DNA of 64,000 bases from NCBI RefSeq assembly GCF_024868665.1, contig NW_026634375.1, positions 1,617 to 65,616 of the forward strand, written 5' to 3'. This document shows positions 19,596 through 62,711 of the stretch, piece after piece (the stretch's first letter is position 1; every line of letters starts with the position of its first letter). The position numbers were made by a program, and so were the translations under genes. The DNA comes from Triplophysa rosa (lineage: Eukaryota; Chordata; Actinopteri; Cypriniformes; Nemacheilidae). Under the pieces are notes generated by a model, which was not told the origin of the DNA, did no database searches, and worked only from the letters and a program-made list of their open reading frames with translations.

Positions 19596-19865
19596 AAGTC
19601 CGAGTTAGTTTAGTGTTAGTGTGATACAGACTGTGAAGCGGTTTCCGTGGTGATACTGGTGGAATATCCTATCAGCCAATCAGATTCGAGAACCAGAAAG
19701 AACTGTTGTATAATAATTAAATGACACCAATATGTGGGCTTTTTGTGTTCTTTTTGCTTTTGTTCTTTAAAGTTCCAACAGATTGAAGCAGCCTCAGTTT
19801 TTTTCCGTCAGTGGTTCGGTTTCTATTACGGTAAAAGAATCGTTGTATATTGTTTGTGTTTCAGG

Positions 19866-22629
19866 ATGGCAGAGTTTGATGTGGAGTTGTTCTCTGAACA
19901 GGAGCTGACCTGCTCCATCTGTCTGGAGATCTTCATCGAGCCCGTGTCCACACCATGCGGTCATAACTTCTGTCAGAGTTGCATTGGTGGTTATTGGGCT
20001 TCCAGTTCAGTCTGCACCTGTCCGCTGTGTAAACGTCCGTTCGGCGAAAGACCTGAACTCAGCATCAACCGTGTGTTTGCTCACATCGCGCAGAAATACA
20101 AAGAGAAGCGCTACGGGGAGCCGCCCAAACCAAAACCGCGACAGAAATCCATTTCAGCTGGAGTTTCACCGACCGATGCGCACGAGCAAATATTCTGTGA
20201 CATCTGCAGCGGCAAGAAACAGAAAGCCGTCAGTTCATGTCTGACGTGTACTGCGTCGTACTGCGAGATTCACGTGCTGCCACATCGCCAGACGTCCTTC
20301 TACTCATCCCATCGGCTGCTGGACCCTCACGAGGCCCTGCGGGGTCGAACCTGCCCTCAACACGGACGACTTCTGGAGGTTTACTGTCGGACAGATGAGA
20401 AGTGTATTTGTGCCATCTGTGTGTTAGAGGAGCATCGCACACACGCCACAGTCTCCGTGCAGACAGAGAGAGCTTACAAACAGGTCAGATCTCCTCTCTC
20501 GTACACACCGACACCAATCAGAACACTGGGAAATTAAACAAACGTCCAGTACATCTTCCTTTAATTTACCGACATTTCCGCTAATGCTACAATGTCATTT
20601 AATGCAGCGCAAAATGTGAAATACACTTAAAACAACTGTCAAAAAAGAAAATTCCTTCATATTATTGTGCCCTGGTTTTACAGTTTAGTGTTTTGTCATC
20701 GTGTTCGTCGTATTTGTGTTTTACCTTAAAGTCTTCTGATTGATTTCTACTAGACTCACATCCTCTTCTATATACACTTCTATGTTTACTTGACTTTACG
20801 TGATGCACACACAATTATACATCCGAGAAATATTTCCTTTCAAAAGTTTTAAACACGACTCATTTCTATTTGATAAAATAACCCTTTTTCCCTCATAAAA
20901 CACAGTACGAAACCTTAAATCGCACAAAAGTATCTGAAAGATTTCTTATATTCTGTACAATTCGTGGTTATTTGCGAAACATTTTGCAAAAAAACTCAAG
21001 TGAAAGTTTAAGACCACAAAGAGCCTCATGGATCCAAATCCTCCCTTGTTTTCTCATCTCATCTCCTAGAGACTTCTGGGAAAAACCGAGCTGGACGTTC
21101 AGATGTGTATTGAAAGAAGAAGTGTGGACGTAAATGAGCTGAAGAGTAAACTGCAAACCCTGCAGGTATTTATTCTGCAGAATACATCGAGTCATTTAGC
21201 GGACGCTTTTATCCAAAGCCACTTACAGACGAGGGAAACGAGGGAAGCAGTCGGATCGAGCAACATGAGGTTAACAGAACAGAAAGAGTCACACAGTTCA
21301 CTCCACAGATGAGGATGGGTTCATCTGTGAACTGGTTTAGGAGATCCAGTGAAACCTAGCATTGACTCTTCATGTCATCGTACCGTATGTTTGTTATCAG
21401 TTTAGCGAGTGTGACTGTTTGTGCTGAAGCCTGTTCTAATGGAAGTGTGTGTGTGTGTGTGTGATAGAGTTGTGCTCACTCAGAGCTGTCTGAAGTGGAT
21501 CAGCTTCTGTCTGACATCACACAGTCTGTGGATCGCATCCGGAGCGAGCTGCTGGCCGGTATCCAGGAGAAACAGGAGGCTGTGATTGGACGAGGACAGA
21601 GAATCGTCTCTCAGCTGGAATCCAAGTTAACTCAACTGCGAGAGCGGAAAGACGGACTGGAGGCTCAGGCCGTTTCTGAAGATCACATCAGCTTTCTCAA
21701 GGTATATTTCTCTCATTCTCATTCACAAATCCTCTGATTCTTCCAACGGTTCTCTGAGCATTTTTACTGAAGAATGTTACTGATTTCTCTATCAAGTGAG
21801 AATGCCTGAAATGACCGCATGTATTTTCAGACTAAAGGCTTTTTTTTTAAAAACGGAAGTTTTATTCAAAGTGACCAAATGAAACATGTTGTTTTCAGGT
21901 TAAATAAGTAACAGGATAGTGTTTGGGGTCAGAGGTCACACAAAACAAATGTGAAAACGTAAGACCTTTGTTCTCCATCAGAGCCGTCGCTGGACCTGAA
22001 TGAAGCCCTGGATGTTTTAGCTTCGGGTGTGTTTGATTACCACACAGCCTCGGACCAGATGACCAAAAACTGAGACCAAATCCTACTGTATATCTCAAGT
22101 CAGTCTTGTCTTCTAAACAACTCCTGTCTTTGTTTGTTTGTCGTCAGAGTTTTGAGGAGATGAACCGTCCCGTTCAGGACACAGACACACATGATGAGCT
22201 GGAGGAGGATCTGACGTTACACTTCTCTCTCGGAGATGTGAAGAGAGCTTTAGGAGAGATGTGCGAGCGACTGGACGACATCCGCTACGGTGAAGTCCAT
22301 TACAGACACTCGGGTGAGATATTCTTATCTGTCAACTCCGTCTCGGATGTTTCTCTCAGGAGAAATGGAAAGAGTCTGGAGGTGATTGCAGCGCTGAAAT
22401 CATCTGGATTTGAGTCAATGTGAGGAGAAATGTTTGAGTTGATATTGAGATCTTCAGTCATACTGACTTTTGATCGCAGACGAGACCAATCGGCGCTCAG
22501 TTTGACACGTTGTTGACATCTCTTCTCAAACTCTCATGACACACACATTTCTGACTCGTTTTCTGCAGCAAAAGTTTCCTTTTTTTCTCCTTTTAATCTC
22601 ACTGACGTCTAAGAGAAATCTGTTTCTGT

Positions 22630-22818: not shown

Positions 22819-25230
22819 CAGTGTCGGGTGTGGCAGAGAGCGAAAGTTTGACAAGTCTTCAATTCATCAGGAGGAAAGACCACTGGTCATTAAAAGGTAA
22901 ACAAACAAACATAATCTATCTGTATCCTTATCTTTGGAGAAATATTCATCTTCTTTTCTTCTACTCTTGAATGTTTTATAGATCTGCGGAAGATCAAGAC
23001 AGGTATGGAAAGCGCACAGCAGCAGCAGACATGTTCTTCTTCTTGTGTCAGTCAGTGTATTTTCTGACGATGACGATGTTATTCTGTCTTTGATCGGGAC
23101 CCATTATTCATATCAAGAGCGATTCATTACAGCTTTATTTTCACGTCTGCTCATGTTGAATAGAAACGACATGACTTGCTGTCTGTTATCCGAGTTCTCA
23201 ACTTGTGCTTTACATGAATCTTCTCTACGGTATTGTGTTCTGGATCCCTAATAACCAACAGCAGCAGTTAGAGCTGGACCTTTCTCTCACCGTGCTCAGA
23301 GTTGATCGGTGTTTTCTGCACTACTCGTGTGTCATGTGGAGACGAACGGTTACTTACGTACATGTGTACATGTGTGTCTTCTAGGTCACAAAAAGATTAA
23401 AGGCTTCCTTGGTGAGTATTATTGATTCTTCTTATCATATAAGTTATCAAACACATCCGTGAAGTAATGTTAAAACAACATAATATATGTCCTAGCTAAA
23501 ACAGTCTAAAAAGTTCAAAACGTATTTCAAAATATTATTTGTTGAATATTTCAAAGCATTCAGAAATAATTCGAATGCTCTTAGAACATATTTTTTTGTT
23601 AGACTGAGCACAAACCTTAATACCAAAAAGGAACGAAACAAGTATAAAAAGAAAGATTTGCTCTGGAATTTGCAAGGTTTTAACTGAGCCGTTTCGAGAG
23701 ATTGAGCTTCAACAGTTTTGCGTTCTATTTGAATTTGTAGATACAACTTTTTTGTTTTCTAAAAAAAGTCCCAAAATATTCACAATGCTAAGAAAAACCA
23801 GCGCATAATATGAATATTTGAATAACATTAAAACACATTTTGAATGAACAAATATTTAAATGTATTTGCATTTTATTTCTTAATCTATTATTCAAATAGT
23901 AAAATTTGTAGTTTTATTTTCAAAATACACTCATTCTATGTTTGATGCTCATATTTCTTAACAGGGGTTGTGTTTGTGTCGTTATATTTAACACTGAAGA
24001 CGCTAGTTTTCCTGCTTTAGCCGCTCAACAGTTCAGGAGAGTTCCACTCTCATATTCAGCGTTCATAACCAGTTTTAATAAGACATTAATGCACACCATA
24101 AGAAACACTGACTTCAGTGCCGTGCTGAGACCTTTGGATGGGCAGGTGCTCAAGACTTTCTGATCACGTTCCGCCCATGCATCAAAATGGGCACTTTGGG
24201 CAAAGGGGCTCAAGCACCCTCCCACCTCCCAAGTCCCACTGCATTCGATCATTTCATCACTTGAAACTCATCTTTAAGCATTACACTAGCATGTGTATAA
24301 TATGTTATATGTATATTTTTTCCTAAAATGACTTGAATGTAACTCTACACTCTTGCTTCGTTTAGTATATGCAGATTCATGAATATGCATATTAGTCCCG
24401 ACTCAGACCGTTGATTCTATATCTATGGCCAAAATCTGTGAACGTGATTGGTTACAGGGTTATGATGTGGTAAACAGAATACTTCATTCAAGTGTACACG
24501 TAACGTAGACATTGCTGCGTTTCAAGTACAGCAACTTGACAATTCCTTCATTTCAGAGGACATATCACTGAATCCAGTGACGGCTTACCCGTTCCTCATC
24601 CTGTCAGACGACAGAAAACAGCTGAAGAGAGGCGAGAAGCTGCAGTTCTACAGAAACAGCGTCCAGCGCTTCGACGTCTGGTCCTGTGTGCTTGCGAAAG
24701 AAGGCTTCGAGTCAGGACGACACTACTGGGAGGTTAAACATCTGATTTGATATCTTCTATGTTCTGCTCCAACAACAGTATTCTACTTTTGTGAACAACA
24801 GAGCCCTGTGAAGAGTGAGCTGTTGCCGATAAATGAAAGGTTTGAGACGTTTCTTTCTGACTTCCAGGTGAATGTTGGTGAGAATAAGGACTGGAAGTTA
24901 GGAGCGGTGCGGGAATCGTCTCAGAGGAAAGGTCTGTTTGACATGAGTCCTGACAGCGGTTACTACACCATCTGGTGGAGCGGGAATCATTTGAGAGCTC
25001 TCACAGCTCCTCCTCCTGTTAAGATTAAAGTCAGCGGTCGTCTGCGGCGGGTCGGTGTTTATCTGGACTGTGAGGAGGGGCAGCTCATCTTCTATAACGC
25101 CAAGACGGGTTCAGAGCTGTATTCATTTACCACAGTGGAGTTCTCCGAGAAAATGTTCCCGCTGTTTGGCACCAGTGATAAAGACCTACCGCTGGTGCTG
25201 ATGTCCGTGGCTGTCAGTGTCCCCGAATGA
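19866..25230 (+). CDS. TRIM family E3 ubiquitin ligase (RING, two B-boxes, coiled coil, PRY-SPRY)
   Basis: Exons are 19866-20483, 21070-21165 (96 bp), 21468-21701 (234 bp), 22148-22313, 22822-22896, 22982-23002, 23385-23411, 24557-24732 and 24868-25230. All are in phase and give 591 aa. The C3HC4 RING uses C16, C19, C31, H33, C36, C39, C52 and C55 (CSICLEIF, PCGHNFCQSC, CPLC). Two B-boxes follow (CDICSGKKQK near 105, CPQHGRLLEVYC near 165), then a coiled coil (about 207-370). A Lys-rich linker (372-412) is made by three mini-exons, and a PRY-SPRY domain fills 413-591. The 96- and 234-bp exons are typical of class IV TRIM genes. The RING suggests ubiquitin transfer and the SPRY target recognition. 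It resembles fish bloodthirsty-related or TRIM25-like members, but I cannot name an orthologue. The ATG lies just after an acceptor; an in-frame upstream ATG at 19734 lies in the intron. Confidence 0.9.
21193..21228 (+). repeat. Conserved fish repeat tail (SINE-like), copy 1
   Basis: The motif CATTTAGC-GACGCTTTTATC followed by CAAAG-CACTTACAG. Reverse copy at 41171-41202 and another at 51015-51050. This core is widespread in fish retroposons; the family is not determined. Confidence 0.6.
22633..22817. repeat. (GT)n microsatellite, about 185 bp, with one N
   Basis: Uninterrupted GT dinucleotides except for an undetermined base at 22725. Its right edge runs straight into GACAG, the acceptor of the TRIM 75-bp exon. 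The single N suggests unresolved length or base call in the assembly. Confidence 0.97.
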
Positions 25231-37300: not shown

Positions 37301-40268
37301 GGTTTTGCGAGCGCGGTCCTCTGAGCCTTCCTCATCGTCAGCTTCCGTGTCCATAACCACTTTACGCACCCTGTGGGCCGCCTCTCCCCGACGCCGCTGT
37401 GGCTGGGGCTCATCCGTGTTGTCTTGCTCCTTTTCTGCTACGAAACTCTCACCTTCAGAGTCCTCGCTGGCACTGAAGCCCAGTTCTGCCAGACGCCGAC
37501 TGCGTTCGCGGGCGCTGCTGTTGCCGTATGTGGGGGCCGGAGAGGACGGTTCGGAGGCGGCAGCGGGAGACGGTGATTCAGAGACCGATTCGGAGTCACT
37601 TTCAGAACTGGACGATGAGGAAGAGCTAGAGTCTGGCACTCGCTCAAAAAGCTGACACATGCGTTTGAAGCGTTCCAGTTTCTCACGGTGATGAGAGCGC
37701 TGGTCCAGGCTGGGAGTTAAAGATGAGGCCTGCGCTGCAGCGGACCCTCCAGAAGAACTGTGGCCACCAGCTGAAGACGAGTTCGGCCCGTTCGCTTCAG
37801 AAGAGTCGGAGGAGTTGGGTTTCATTTTCTGCCGAGAAAGAGAAGTGATGTTGTGAGAGTCAATGGTCATTTTAAACAATACGTCTAGAGAATATAACAA
37901 TCATACCTTTTTCAGGTGCTTATCACGGGCGCCCTTGACCTGTTCGACAAAAGCAAAAACACAGACAACGTGCGTAAAGACAGAGGTCTGTGCTTTCAAT
38001 AAGATCTCATTGAAGTTAATTTACAAAAGTATTCCGCCAATTTTCATTTTAGTTTTTTGACTCTGTGCCCAGAAAAAACAGCATCAACAAACACAAAAAC
38101 ATTCCATATAGAAACCTAACTTCCTGTTCCATTACTTTTGTCATGACTGTACATTCCAAAAGATCTGAAGGTTTTGACAGGATTATGTCGAGGATCTTTA
38201 AAAAAAAATTGACTTCATGTTTTTAATTTAACTCAGTTATTTCCCACTTAAAGATAAGTGCTTGTTTTCATCTTTAGATTAGTACCAAACAAAAATCTTA
38301 TTTTTTTCTTACGTCATTTGATCAGAGAGATTGTAGTGACACGTCACACTTCATAATGATAACCCACCCAATCATTTTTTAGATTCACTGGCAGCTGGAA
38401 TTCATTTGATTTATTTTAAAATTTAGCAAATTTCTATTCTATTACCTCTACTTAAGTAACATTTAGAGAAATATAGTAGTTGTATATTGCATATATTGTT
38501 GTCATATAGAAGTAATAATAACGAGTACATAATTAATTTTCAAATCACACACTTTTACATGCAACTTCTGAAAATTGTAATTCATGCATGTAAAGCTCAA
38601 TAGAATGTTCATTTGAGACCAAACATCTTCACAGTCTTTTCATGTTTGTTTAAAGTGAAATTATTGGATTATTAGAAATGATTACATTCAAATTGAAGAG
38701 GCTGTTTTTAAATGAACTTGTACTTTTTGTTCTTTTGCTGTCGTGATCGTTCCTCATTTTTTACGTCTGCGAAATGATGTACATAAGAAAACATGCTTCT
38801 ATTTAAAACAAGGTTTCACATCCATCACATCCGGATCTTTCTGACCAGGAGTGACTGGTGAATAAATGCTGTAGAGGTTCTTAATTCATGTTAGCTATGG
38901 CATTCACTAATGTTAACAAACACAACCTTATCGTAGTGTTCGCATTTTTTTCTTCTGCAGAAAGGGAAACCTATTTTTGAAGATGAAGAAAAAGATATCA
39001 ATGAGATTTTTTGTTGGAGTGCCACCTTATGGGCACAATCAGAACACATTTGGCAAGCATCCCTTCCAGTGATCTGGTGTCTATAGACAATAGTTTTTAT
39101 TCAACATGAATGCTCGATAGGCTCTCGCCGTTAGATCAAATGTGAATGTGTGCATTATAGCCATAACTTGTGTCTTTTCGTTCCGTCCAAGTATTTGACA
39201 GCTTGTGTAACTGCTTGCTTTCTAAATAATGACTAAAAGCTGAGCCTGCCTTAAACCATCATTCATTTAGCACCTTCATTATTTTATTTTCGCTACTAAC
39301 ATTACACAGCACCAAAAAAAAACGGCACACGTTACCGGCGATTCCACATTCCAAACAGAATATCCAGAAGCTCTACAGGACTGACCTTCTTTTTGGAAGC
39401 GCTCTCCTGAGGCAGATCTTTCTCTTTCTTGCGCTTATGTCCATCCTGACGGGCCGTGTCTTCCAGAGACGGCGGCTTCTTTTTACTCGGTGGCGGATCG
39501 TCGGTCAGTTTCCAGCGACTCACCTCTCCGTTGTCCATTCGTCTCTTTCCTAAACCGTCTCCCTGATCCTTGAACATAAACACACTCTTGAAAGGCACTT
39601 CAACCTTTTATTTCATCTACGGCAAACTCACGAGGATCATCTCAAACTGTTCTTACCTTACTGGTCTTTCCTTCCTTGTGGCACTTTGGACACTCCCAGC
39701 AGTTTGGGATCTCATCATTAATAATGCCTTCAGATTTACCCATCTGCAGGAGACAGTTTGGTCATTTCAGGTGTGAGAGAATAAAGAGCTCAGATCAGCG
39801 ATGTTCTCGCACACACACACACACACACACACACAGACCTTCAGACAGCTGGGGTGAATGATCTCATTACAGATGGTGCACTCCATCAGAGACAGACTGA
39901 ACTTCTCCTCCTCCGACTCCACCGTGTCCTCCTTCCCCGCTTCACCGCACGCAAAACACACGGCTGTGTGAGGCAACACCGGCTGGAGGAGGACGACATC
40001 GTGACAGACACTTGTTACTCGCGTCTAGCCCGTGCAGGGGAAAGAACTTTGAGGGTTTCTTGTCATGTACGAGTGAGGTGTGTACGGCTGTATTTACCGC
40101 AGTGCACTGCCTGAGCAGACACGACTGCTTCATCCGGCCCGGTCCACCAAACTTCTTCATGTCTTTGCAGAAGTGGCACTCGCCGCACTCGGTCCGCATG
40201 CAGGCTTGACAGCGCCGGCAACGTGTCCGTCGCCGCCGCGCCCCTCCCAGCGCCTTACTGCCAGACAT
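28385..40268 (-). CDS. fbxl19: F-box/LRR protein 19 (CXXC, PHD, F-box, LRR)
   Basis: FBXL19 is a nuclear SCF substrate receptor whose CXXC finger binds unmethylated CpG islands. Exons (minus): 40098-40268 (coding part), 39839-39982, 39657-39743, 39386-39568, 37907-37939 (33 bp), 36672-37828 (1157 bp), 33219-33382, 32968-33132, 30302-30523 and 28385-28542. All phases agree, giving 827 aa; human is about 694, the excess lying in the Ser-rich middle. The CXXC domain (about 12-57) shows [18 protein letters not shown] and KKFGG. The PHD (58-134) shows [14 protein letters not shown] and CWECPKC. The F-box (about 555-600) reads [13 protein letters not shown] and [10 protein letters not shown]. Six or so LRRs end [14 protein letters not shown]. 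The JmjC domain of its KDM2 relatives is absent, which separates it from kdm2a/b. The start MSGSKALGG matches the shorter human form. Confidence 0.95.
28922..29946. mobile_element. TTAA-flanked DNA transposon with nested SINE
   Basis: The ends AGGAGTAGTTC and GAACTACTCCT are exact inverted repeats, flanked by TTAA at 28918-28921 and 29947-29950. Inverted similarity continues inward (the ACTCACCCACGT block at about 28963 against ACGTGGGTGAGT at about 29895). 1025 bp in the last fbxl19 intron. Noncoding apart from the SINE at 29312-29562. Confidence 0.8.
29312..29562 (-). mobile_element. tRNA-derived SINE
   Basis: The minus strand starts CGTGGCTTAATGGTTAGAG, an A box, and has a B-box-like GGTTGGATTCC about 45 bp on. 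The body contains AAGGCACCTTACCCC. Same family as the split copy at 1065/2328. Nested in the TTAA element. Confidence 0.75.
30863..31946. mobile_element. hAT-type element in fbxl19 intron
   Basis: The left end TAGGGATGC and the right end GCATCCCTA are inverted repeats, flanked by a perfect 8-bp duplication CACACAAC (30855-30862 and 31947-31954). 1084 bp, no transposase frame. Confidence 0.85.
32489..32735. repeat. Low-confidence interspersed repeat
   Basis: Contains GGCGCCCTAGGCAAGCGCC, part of a string I recognise from many fish repeats. The termini GGAGGGCC and GGCCCTGG could be imperfect inverted ends. Confidence 0.3.
34252..34348. repeat. Shared repeat block, copy 2
   Basis: Same motif order as 19256-19345, including CTCCAAACCGTCACGCCTTT. 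It continues into GGTGGGGTAACATGC. Confidence 0.6.
36500..36590. mobile_element. hAT (Charlie-like) end fragment
   Basis: Ends GGTTGAGAACCACTG, the complement of the CAGTGGTTCTCAACC terminus, followed by TTCTACAG. The partner end and the duplicate of TTCTACAG were not found, so only one terminus is called. Confidence 0.45.
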
Positions 40269-41170
40269 CCCCTCTGCATTCAACTGACACACGCACACAC
40301 ACACACGTTAGCCGTCCATACACCAAAGAAAGAACTGAAGAGACATCAACGGCATCCTCATCAAAGTCCTTTTAATGGTTTCGAGTGTAACGGTGTAACT
40401 GGTTAGATCATGGGTTTATCAGTCAAACTAGAGACTTGGAAGCAAGCACTGGACTCTTGACTACTGAATGAATGGTTTCATTAAACACTAAACGGTCTGC
40501 TGGGTCACAGGTCTGTTCCAACAGGATAGTCACAGACCGAAGAGAAAACCTGCGTGTGGTGTGAACAGCAGAAAACACTCATTAACCTTCTGAAAGGTAC
40601 CAGAAAACGATATCTTCATGTCAAGTGCTGCCTGTCAATATAAACGCGTGGCCAATCCTATGCAAATGTCGACCTGACTAGCATTAGGGTTTACACTCTA
40701 CCGATGAGTCAGATGTCAACGTTTAGAGGTTTAGCCACGTGTAGTCTGCATTACAGTTTGTAAAGCCTTTTTGTTGTTGTTTTCAAAGCATGGTTTCCAG
40801 GTAAGTGCTGCTTAATCCATAACGGTCCATTTCCCTTATAAACAGGTGCATAAAAATAGATAATATAACCGTTTGACGGTGTATGAAGATCCATCCCTTT
40901 CTCCGTTTTCTTCTGGTTTGTGCTTGTTAATTCACAGAAATCCTGATCTCTCAAAAACATGTGTCTGTTCTCGTCACATCCCTTACGTCAAACAGAAAAC
41001 GTGTCTACAGACTGATCTTTTTCTGATGTCTGGACGCTATCAACAGGGGGTTAAGAAAATACAAACGGATGCTACAATATATTGGTAATAATACCAAGGA
41101 GACTAGATTTCAATTTGAACATATTTGCTGATTTATGACAAAATGTTAATTCTCTCTTTCATATGTACTG

Positions 41171-50511: not shown

Positions 50512-51115
50512 ATGTTTTATCTGACTTATACAATTATGAGTTGACCAAAGTGTCGCTACATCAAGGACTTTGTATTGAGAAAAAATTGCGACGTGGATTT
50601 TGTGTGTTACTTGTTGTGTGATGGATATTTTGTGCAAAATACAATATATTCACTATTGAACTTTAAAAGCTAAGCTTCCTGACAAATATTATAAAATATA
50701 CAACTCAAAAGTAGCTGCAAGATAAGCTCACATAACTATATTTGTTTATGTGCAGTCATAAGAAAACGAGTAATCTCGGAATTACAAAACCATCGAGACA
50801 AATGAATGATATCGTAATCATCAGAATTTGAACCAAGTTGTGCATCATGACAGAGGCAGAAATGATCCATGCAAGAAACTGACACACAATAATATCTGCC
50901 TCTGTCATCTAGAAATCACCAACATGCGCCAGGCCAAAAGAAAAAACATCATGAGACACAGTCACTGGGGGGGAGAGAATTCTAATCCGAAATGAACATT
51001 ACATTTACATTTCTTTATTTGGCAGACGCTTTTATCCAAAGCGACTTACAAGTAGGACAGCATATAAACATTCTTGTCAACACGCTAAACGGCACCATTA
51101 GTTTATCCCTATGCC
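50512..51115. other. Spacer downstream of ube2m
   Basis: No gene seen. The third copy of the fish repeat tail (TGGCAGACGCTTTTATCCAA) is at about 51019-51050. Confidence 0.55.
51015..51050 (+). repeat. Conserved fish repeat tail, copy 3
   Basis: Core GGCAGACGCTTTTATCCAAA followed by GCGACTTACA, as at 21193 and, reversed, at 41171. Confidence 0.6.
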
Positions 51116-51749
51116 CAGGGGTGCACATAAGTTTTTCTATCTGGTTCTCAAGAGAGCACCTGGAGATTCGGTTTGGTGCTCACATTGCACATAGTGTGAC
51201 AAATTATATGTACCTATTAAAAATAAAAGTAGTTACTTTTTAATGAACAATAAACAAAATAATAAAGTGGGATAATACTATATTTGTATTACACTTAAAA
51301 CACAATGATAATGTATTTCTTCTTGTTTTTCTTTTTACATTAGTAAATATTAATATTCTACACCAATTTTGAAACCTAAAACGACAACCTTTTTGGTTTT
51401 TGGCAGGTTGCTGGGAAGTGCCCTTGCGAACGCACATGGAGACTTGCGGTGCGGAGCTGGGATCGAGTATAGCAGAGAAACACAAGATGCGTGCAAGTGT
51501 CAAGTTTAAAAAAAAGTTTAAGAGAAGCGGTGTTTTGGGAGACGCGCAGCGCAGCGCAGGTCCAGTCATTCACAGAGGCTGCGCGCGCCGCCCGCGTGCT
51601 TCTCTAGTCACGAAAGCAGAACCAACAAAGGCGGAGCACCAATACTCCGTTTTTCATCATTTACACCCAGGTCCCGTTTATCACCGGGAACAAACGAGAT
51701 ATCAGTAGTTTTAGCAGCATTCAGTACAAACGGAAATCTTATCCAGTAT

Positions 51750-52738
51750 AATATGGAGCCAGAAATATGACAAAACAATCTGAATTTGAATTTCGTAAAT
51801 CTGAATTATTGACAAGTGTTTTTAAACAAAACTGAATATTATATGGGAGTTAAAATAGTTTTGAATTAGATTTTGATTTCGAATTTGAAGTTTTTTTACT
51901 TGAATATTGAACATTTGAAATTTAACACAATTGATTTTTTTTAAGGCAGAGTTTTATAGGCATGCATTTTCAAACAACATATTTTTTGCTCTGAATTCTT
52001 AGATTGCAAATATCCAGTTTTTTTTAATACAGCCTCACGTTTTCAAGATGAAGAAGAAATTCGGAACATCAAATTCAATTTTCTAAAATTCAAAACGCAG
52101 AAATTCAGATCGTACAGACAGTAGGTCAGAGGTCGTCCACAGGGAAGAGTAGAAGATCTCGGAAAAGTCAAACGGAGCGCTTTGGCCACAATGGCCAGTT
52201 ATTTGTTCTTATTATCCAATCAAACTCCAAACATGCTGTTTTGGAGAGTGGAACTTCTTACATTGCAATAAAAAGGATTTACATTTTTCAAATTGCGACC
52301 ACGCCCACAAGACTACACGGGTTGATCGTTTGTTGTTGCTGCAGCATAGCCAAGCTCATACCGCTGCAATCTTAGGCAGCTGCCCGGGATGTGTGCGCTC
52401 ACTGCCTGCGTTTTTGCCTGCTGTGCCTCCACTGTTTGCGCTCACTCCCAGCGTTTGCTGTTGGTGCTTTTACCCACTGTGTGCTTAGTGCACGCTCGCT
52501 GCTAGCTGCCCCACTATGCGCGCTGGCTTCGAGCGTTTGTGGGTGCATATACATTTAATATATTAGACATGTGGGTTTGTGGGTCCTGCAAAGTCAATGA
52601 CATACGTGGCACGCTGCAATAAAAGTTATGTAAAACATTTAATGCTACAATAGAGAGAAAATGAATAAACTATGTAAGCTACAGACTGCATTTAGACTGA
52701 AATAAAAACTTTAATAAAAATAGTGTGTAATAGTACTC
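51750..52738 (+). repeat. Long inverted repeat, left arm
   Basis: From GAGCCAGAAATATGACAAAA (51756) to GTGTGTAATAGTACT (about 52738). It pairs with the reverse complement of 53684-54686. In the inner 500 bp only a handful of differences are seen, so identity there is well above 95 percent. The outer part is AT-rich with repeated AATTTGAA motifs. Confidence 0.92.
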
Positions 52739-53683
52739 TTGTCTATTCTTTGGCTAAATGATTTTTTTGTCAGTGCAGCCAACATGCCAGTCGTAAACAT
52801 TAATCATGTTTAATCAAATCTTATTTTCACTATATTATGAATGGAATTTGATCATAATGGCTGACAATGCCCCAGCTGTGCTCAGTAGTTGTTCATATTG
52901 GGCAGATATGTGTTCACAGCTAAAGACTGAACACAGACAAACTATGAGATAGAGAAATGAGGAGAAAAATATAAAAGCTATTGTTGTGTTATTTCTATGT
53001 ACATTTTTTAAATGACAAAGACTGCAGTTTTAAAGTACTTTTATTCATTTATTAATATGAAGTACAAGTAGCAATGAGGTACAATTAAAACAAAAAGATT
53101 TTCATTTAGCAAACGAACACACCTCCATAAATATAGCCTATTGTCAACGCAAAATAAAAAAGCTATCAGTTTATGCCTTTTAGTGAATACAGTCTAAATG
53201 AAATAAAAATAAACACATTTTCTATCTACTATACAGTAGCCTGCAAAACGAACGCAGCAAAATGCACCTCGATATTAAGGTATGGCGTTTTCAGTCATAT
53301 ATTACTCAACATATTATTTATAGTGAACTATATCCACAACAAACTTACATTATATCCTGAGGAATAAATGCTCTCTTGTTATCATTATCAAAATGTTTAA
53401 TCTGCATGAAACAGAAAGTGCATAACCATACAAAAACACGAACATCATGGTTGCTTTACTGACAAAACGGGAATATAACATAGATCGATAGATTTGTTGG
53501 TTCAGCAGAACGTCCAGTCGTTGAATGTGTGGTGTAGTGGTCTGGCACAGCGGTTAGGTGTGTGCTCCTCTCTGACTGACAAAGACTGGAATCGGCTCTG
53601 GTCATAAGAAAACATCTTTACGTGTGTTGTGTCCAGATTGTTTCAGCTGGTCGTTAAATGTGTCCTGGATCAAAGTTACAGCA

Positions 53684-54686
53684 TTTCAATACTATTACAC
53701 ACAATTTTTTTATTACAAAAGTTATTATTTCAGTCTGTAGCTTACATAGTGTATTCATTTTCTCTCTATTGTAGCATTAAATGTTATACATAACTTTTAT
53801 TGCAGCGTGCCACGTAAGTCATTGACTTTGCAGGACCCACAAACGTTCTTTATAAAAATTGTATACATGTCTAATATATTAAATGTATATGCACCCACAA
53901 ACGCTCAAAGCCAGAGCACATAGTGGGGCAGCTAGCAGCGAGCGTGCACTAAGCACACTGTGGGTAAAAGCACCAACAGCAAACGCTGGGAGTGAGCGCA
54001 AACAGTGGAGGCACAGCAGGCAAAAACGCAGGCAGTGAGCGCACACATCCCGGGCAGCTGCCTAAGATTGCAGCGGTATGAGCTTGGCTATGCTGCAGCA
54101 ACAACAAACGATCAACCCGTGTAGTCTTGTGGGCGTGGTCGCAATTTGAAAAATGTAAATCCTTTTTATTGCAATGTAAGAAGTTCCACTCTCCAAAACA
54201 GCATGTTTGAGTTTGATTGGATAATAAGAACAAATAACTGGCCATTGTGGCCAAAGCGCTCCGTTTGACTTTTCCGAGATCTTCTACTCTTCCCTGTGGA
54301 CGACCTCTGACCTACTGTCTGTACGATCTGAATTTCTGCGTTTTGAATTTTAGAAAATTGAATTTGATGTTCCGAATTTCTTCTTCATCTTGAAAACGTG
54401 AGGCTGTATTAAAAAAAAACTGGATATTTGCAATCTAAGAATTCAGAGCAAAAAATATGTTGTTTGAAAATGCATGCCTATAAAACTCTGCCTTAAAAAA
54501 AGCAATTGTGTTAAATTTCAAATGTTCAATATTCAAGTAAAAAAACTTCAAATTCGAAATCAAAATCTAATTCAAAACTATTTTAACTCCCATATAATAT
54601 TCAGTTTTGTTAAAAAACACTTGTCAATAATTCAGATTTACGAAATTCAAATTCAGATTGTTTTGTCATATTTCTGGCTCTATAGT
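53684..54686 (-). repeat. Long inverted repeat, right arm
   Basis: Reverse complement of the left arm. The main indel is an extra segment near 53845-53870. The arms enclose a unique AT-rich spacer of about 945 bp (52739-53683) without a recognisable protein. Confidence 0.92.
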
Positions 54687-54843
54687 ATTACATTTAGTCG
54701 GTCTAAAACAGTGATTGTGCATCAAAAGGTTTCAACCATGTCAGTACGCAAATGAGCGGTCTAAACTCATTTACAGAGCGCATTTTTAATTTTGGTCGCG
54801 CATGCGCACCTGCGCACCACTTATGTGCAACCCTGCCTATGCC

Positions 54844-55897: not shown

Positions 55898-62711
<6,814 letters not shown>

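Follow-up and report, generated by a model that had tools for sequence, protein, structure and literature searches.

A young, foldback-shaped transposon family of probable IS3EU affinity, represented by a palindromic copy inside a hAT element of Triplophysa rosa

The IS3EU superfamily (IS3EU/GingerRoot, Repbase/Kojima) offers the closest described match to the transposon reported here. Its members are characterized by TA..TA termini and a 6-bp TSD in the sections of Kojima's account that cover them (PMC10045372), and the fungal elements outlined in PMC12730594 have a TIR of more than 30 bp and the termini TAYGG..CCRTA. In shape, the closest systems are the foldback elements Tetris and Galileo. 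As far as their published outlines go, these have in common with our element long near-identical TIRs, a variable or absent middle, a non-autonomous nature, and rearranged and solo-arm copies. Tetris differs in its 8-10-bp TSD, the ~220-bp tandem repeats in its TIRs and its suggested Mutator origin, as summarized in PMC4079207; the element described here has a 6-bp TSD and 24-nt direct repeats, which are short and the only repeats of that kind in its arms. Galileo is placed in the P superfamily in the summary given by PMC4168063. Non-autonomous hAT elements share CAGGG ends and an 8-bp TSD with the outer element of this locus, which is the target of the insertion and not the palindrome itself.

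The window is a stretch of 64,000 nucleotides of the Triplophysa rosa genome, and the features of the locus are collected in Table 1. The outer element shows two features of hAT membership, an 8-bp TSD and a CAGGG-type TIR. Its limits had been placed in the preliminary description on the strength of CAGGG ends and an exact 8-bp duplication, and they hold: the termini, 17 nt long in the window sequence, are complementary at 16 of 17 positions, and CCTATGCC is repeated exactly at 51108-51115 and 54836-54843. Two relatives carry their own 8-bp TSDs, read by eye from the alignment as TTTATAAG (L062) and CAAATAAA (L063). The hAT family is numerous, the left part of the element giving at least 40 matches in the genome (all 40 scored of 204 candidates). 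The halt of matches near base 634 of this 635-base query carries no weight as evidence, since the query itself was cut there. A UnaL2 LINE 3' element, above the gathering score, lies immediately upstream of the hAT copy (51009-51062, minus strand).

Table 1. Positions of the nested elements and their parts within the window
Feature	Position	Strand	Basis and remarks
Outer non-autonomous hAT-type element	51116..54835	+	Ends, 8-bp TSD, relatives; 781 bp without the insert
Left 6-bp TSD, GTATAA	51746..51751	+	One base off the empty site
Inner long-TIR, foldback-shaped non-autonomous element	51752..54684	+	Own ends, TSD, empty site; 2,933 bp
Left arm, 984 bp	51752..52735	+	Arm alignment
Spacer, 954 bp	52736..53689	+	Without long reading frame; between the arms in other full copies too
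Right arm, 995 bp	53690..54684	-	Arm alignment
Single ATT, empty site of a ~620-bp nested MITE-like insert	53821..53823	+	Comparison with other copies
Right 6-bp TSD, GTATTA	54685..54690	+	Identical to the empty site

The palindrome is a transposon in its own right that entered a non-autonomous hAT copy of ~780 bp, because it has its own ends and 6-bp TSD and because hAT relatives preserve the empty site. It starts with TATGGAGCCAGA, is flanked by GTATAA on the left and GTATTA on the right, and ends in CTATA, one change from the CCATA of its family. The empty site reads CCAGTATTACATTT, with a single GTATTA, in three of the four hAT relatives fetched (L061, L062, L063); the fourth (L064) diverges at the insertion site. 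The preliminary description had offered two readings, a long-TIR transposon inside the hAT copy and a foldback element; the former is established, and the unit has a foldback shape as well. Its arms of about 1 kb are also borne out, with 957 identities, 14 mismatches and 37 gap positions in the arm-versus-arm alignment of the window copy and with recurrence at other loci; their length is far beyond chance. Two details need correction. The near-identity had been placed in the inner half of the arms and is found instead in the outer three quarters (just 4 mismatches and 3 gap positions), the innermost quarter holding 10 of the 14 mismatches and 34 of the 37 gap positions, and the spacer, given as 945 bp, is 9 bp longer. 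Neither arms nor spacer contain a long reading frame of note. A low-threshold Rfam search of the spacer returned four matches, none of which reaches the gathering score, and a tRNA search of the whole window found none.

The element belongs to a family that has recently spread as a young burst. With the whole window element as query, at least 165 matches were obtained in the genome (40 scored of 539 candidates), and the 26-bp family end occurs 189 times (104+85) with up to two mismatches, against 0+0 for the reversed-pattern control. The arm-spacer-arm unit recurs on several chromosomes with differing flanks and 6-bp TSDs, the arms and spacer travelling together. An exact 6-bp TSD is present in 19 of 22 end pairs, compared with a mean of 0.9 for shuffled right flanks, and no sequence is shared among the 19; none of the 22 pairs has an exact TSD at 4, 5, 7 or 8 bp. 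The window pair has one mismatch and L027 has no TSD. A pair of ends on C4 (L053/L055), 11,858 bp apart, has mismatched flanks and was not counted as a unit. Outside this tally, L011 has the 6-bp TSD CAGCAC. The 100 ends listed include 25 pairs of neighbours that face each other at distances from 217 bp to 11.86 kb, ten of them spaced by 3.49-3.56 kb. We regard the burst as young because 15 copies are 98.1-99.6% identical to the majority sequence (99.0% for the window copy); in addition, the tree built from 20 copies has a star-like shape, good support being limited to 2 of 17 inner branches. L044 (C682:124200-128500) and L042 contain partial arms that stand in tandem or in rearranged order and not as inverted pairs.

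Many copies carry in the right arm a further, MITE-like insert of ~620 bp; it has GGGTTTCCATC ends and, as judged by eye, a 3-bp ATT duplication. Among 23 copies examined, 22 are informative (L028 stops short of the site); 15 of these have the insert (L010-L017, L020-L025, L027), and it is absent from the window copy and six others. Given its presence in 15 of 22 copies, the insert was amplified as a passenger with the inner element. One copy without it, L018 (C25:11050400-11055400), is grouped weakly by the tree with an insert-bearing copy; perhaps the insert was lost precisely, or the site was converted with the left arm as donor.

Two larger units share the ends of the family. One spans 11.86 kb (C12:6463848-6475710, TSD TTTATG) and the other is a 5.04-kb pair of the same ends (C22:181234-186272). 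They have a common interior, unlike that of the palindromic family, since a 1-kb fragment taken centrally from the C22 pair is 97.6% identical to the C12 unit over 830 bp. The terminal repeat found on the C12 unit extends for just ~410-440 bp; a partner of this kind does not account for the greater arm length of the palindromic family. The C12 unit is interrupted by runs of N (6468718-6471152 and 6474061-6474938), and an apparent nested retroelement is visible by eye. None of ten frames from this unit scored above the cut-off against Pfam, the one weak match being to LAP2alpha (E 0.034). An exon-like frame of the shared interior (L051 1234-1551, minus strand) matches a single protein, the transposase-like P0001 (E 2.5e-13, 83% over 42 residues), and in both the C12 and the C22 unit the match is limited to residues 1-42 of P0001 (83%). 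Such partial matches are what internally deleted derivatives would show.

It was through this exon-like frame, and not through an IS481 profile, that a candidate partner was reached. P0001 has 46 matches in the same genome, the best of which (C8:9676552-9677010:-, 82%) is an open frame of 253 aa with no stops. Integrase-core (PF24764) matches, likewise with no stops, lie at C8:9674733-9674861:- and 9674377-9674634:-, and an exact family end at C8:9678933-9678958:- faces these transposase-like exons; the left end of the unit is absent among exact matches to the 26-bp end. The C8 locus thus has a fuller gene than the two larger units, and the C8 unit is here the candidate, and likely, autonomous partner that would carry the transposase. 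The genome search with the IS481 profile (67 scored of 4,173 candidates) yielded no partner, the four loci fetched (L057-L060) being LTR-integrase-like by eye. Genome-wide, PF24764 has at least 157 matches (150 scored of 307 candidates) and none in 14 control genomes. Many further related transposase copies are thus predicted in this genome.

Profile searches link the proteins related to P0001 weakly to the IS3 and IS481 transposases, with all scores below the curated cut-offs. HTH models are matched by P0001 (weakly) and by P0002, P0006 and P0007, and the matches of two of the six relatives extend to the beginning of the rva_4 integrase core (P0002, E 0.008; P0007, 4e-5). In the same HTH/rva_4 scan of the relatives, P0004 and P0005 gave no match, and the sole match of P0003 is to an unrelated B12-binding model. 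The NCBIfam result covers four of the seven proteins (P0001-P0007): the IS3-family model NF033516 is best for P0002, P0005 and P0006 (E 1.3e-6, 1.5e-5 and 1.1e-5) and the IS481 model NF033577 for P0007 (1.7e-6).

On the basis of these comparisons, we interpret the palindromes as a non-autonomous, foldback-shaped young family of IS3EU, an IS3/IS481-like group with an integrase-core transposase, probably mobilised in trans by an element of the C8 type (probability about 0.87). The TSD is 6 bp long, as counted above, with L027 and L053/L055 as the failures; the family termini are TATGG..CCATA, with one change at the right end of the window copy; the TIR is ~985 bp; and the foldback shape shows in the great length and near-identity of the TIRs and in the short or variable middle between them. 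The candidate partner, with a putative DDE transposase of IS3/IS481 type, would resemble IS3EU in combining an HTH region with an integrase core, its relatives being weakly IS3/IS481-like. The palindromic family is distinguished from described IS3EU elements in being non-coding and in its ~1-kb arms. The preliminary description had not recognised the family; its ends, its TSD length and the putative transposase of the candidate partner now point to IS3EU. It is a known kind of transposon and not a new class, so far as the literature searched shows, and that literature contained no paper plainly on an IS3EU foldback.

An ancestral deletion derivative would have turned palindromic when ~1 kb at one of its ends was duplicated in inverted orientation, and amplification would have followed. 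A transposase of the C8 type would cut palindromic copies at TATGG..CCATA and paste them into new sites, and the window copy landed in a hAT copy already in place. Likeness of the arms would be kept mainly by the recent burst, aided by occasional arm-to-arm homogenisation. On this interpretation, a little-studied superfamily gains a young foldback family that has probably moved recently, and the presence of a candidate transposase gene alongside it in one genome makes trans-mobilisation testable. Near-perfect palindromes of such length, dispersed in a genome, may also give rise to long dsRNA and to rearrangement. Apart from the IS3EU foldback and palindrome aspects, this is ordinary transposon biology.

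The strongest alternative concerns how the arms stay alike. The preliminary description held them to be young or maintained by gene conversion; they are mostly young, and arm-to-arm homogenisation makes a measurable minor contribution. Left and right arms of the same copy differ at 2-16 per ~800 sites in 18 of 20 copies; for the same 18, the closest arm in a different copy is 2-13 sites away. The two others (L018, 68/774, misaligned; L033, 11/532) were dropped from the substitution count. We consider it unlikely that continuing gene conversion between the arms, or re-templating of one arm from the other, outweighs youth in keeping the palindrome. In favour of this alternative, six substitutions in the 18 copies are common to exactly both arms of one copy, against 0.44 expected when left and right arms are randomly paired; none of 100000 shuffles reached six, and opposite arms of different copies have merely 2 common substitutions in 306 pairs. 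At position 13 the minority base A occurs in 8 copies, each time in the left and the right arm together and never in one arm alone. The window copy has one paired site in the 18-copy count and a second in the 20-copy arm comparison.

Against these paired changes stand 114 single-arm substitutions in the 18 copies. Same-side arms of different copies have 9 common substitutions in 306 pairs, and inheritance from common parents therefore contributes. The nested MITE-like insert is confined to the right arm, a 17-bp gap in the left arm of the window copy remains unrepaired, and the paired changes may stem from a single fixation in an unsampled parent. We conclude that arm identity is mainly due to youth, with some arm-to-arm homogenisation; arms have sometimes been homogenised, within a copy or its parent, which does not imply ongoing conversion at each locus. 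A bolder version, which we consider doubtful, is an IS3EU foldback family whose 1-kb arms are made alike again and again, either in the course of transposition or afterwards, for instance via a hairpin or by gap repair templated on one arm. If true, an IS3-type transposase would act on substrates whose ends are copied from each other, and the family would be, within the literature searched, the earliest described foldback lineage of IS3EU.

Assignment to other superfamilies is much less probable than the IS3EU reading. A deletion derivative of a Maverick/Polinton would be compatible with a 6-bp TSD and a long TIR: Mavericks too make 6-bp duplications, and PMC8097293 gives a TIR range of 46-1,447 bp for intact vertebrate elements. 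The same source gives (AGT)2, (AG)3 or (AC)3A for vertebrate Maverick ends, and the family ends in TATGG..CCATA; furthermore, the exons of the candidate partner match rva_4 and its relatives match IS3/IS481 models, which argues against Maverick and makes this origin very improbable. Equally improbable is a Dada-type or Mutator-type foldback. Dada elements of fish have TSDs of 6-7 bp according to the portion of PMC8869645 that treats them, and foldbacks are mostly assigned to Mutator in the overview of PMC4079207. However, PMC3706591 found no TIRs in Dada-U6 or Dada-U1 and describes small-RNA genes as the target of Dada, in contrast to the 1-kb TIR and the exact TSDs without common sequence seen here. 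Tetris, placed in Mutator, has the 8-10-bp TSDs cited above from the same overview, and none of our 22 pairs is exact at 7 or 8 bp. Least plausible of all, to the point of being negligible, is that the palindrome is only apparent, produced by assembly duplication or by separate insertions unrelated to each other, a reading for which no evidence was found; assembly duplication in particular explains the data poorly because the same arm-spacer-arm unit recurs at several loci, each with a different 6-bp TSD and different flanks.

Elsewhere in the window, a HEAT-repeat match slightly under the cut-off (61978-62373, plus strand) marks a stretch that we take to resemble importin beta. RING and B-box domains (19725-20534, plus strand) are followed by a SPRY domain (24751-25227, plus strand), and these perhaps form a single TRIM-like gene. 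An exon encoding a CXXC zinc finger lies at 39945-40307 on the minus strand.
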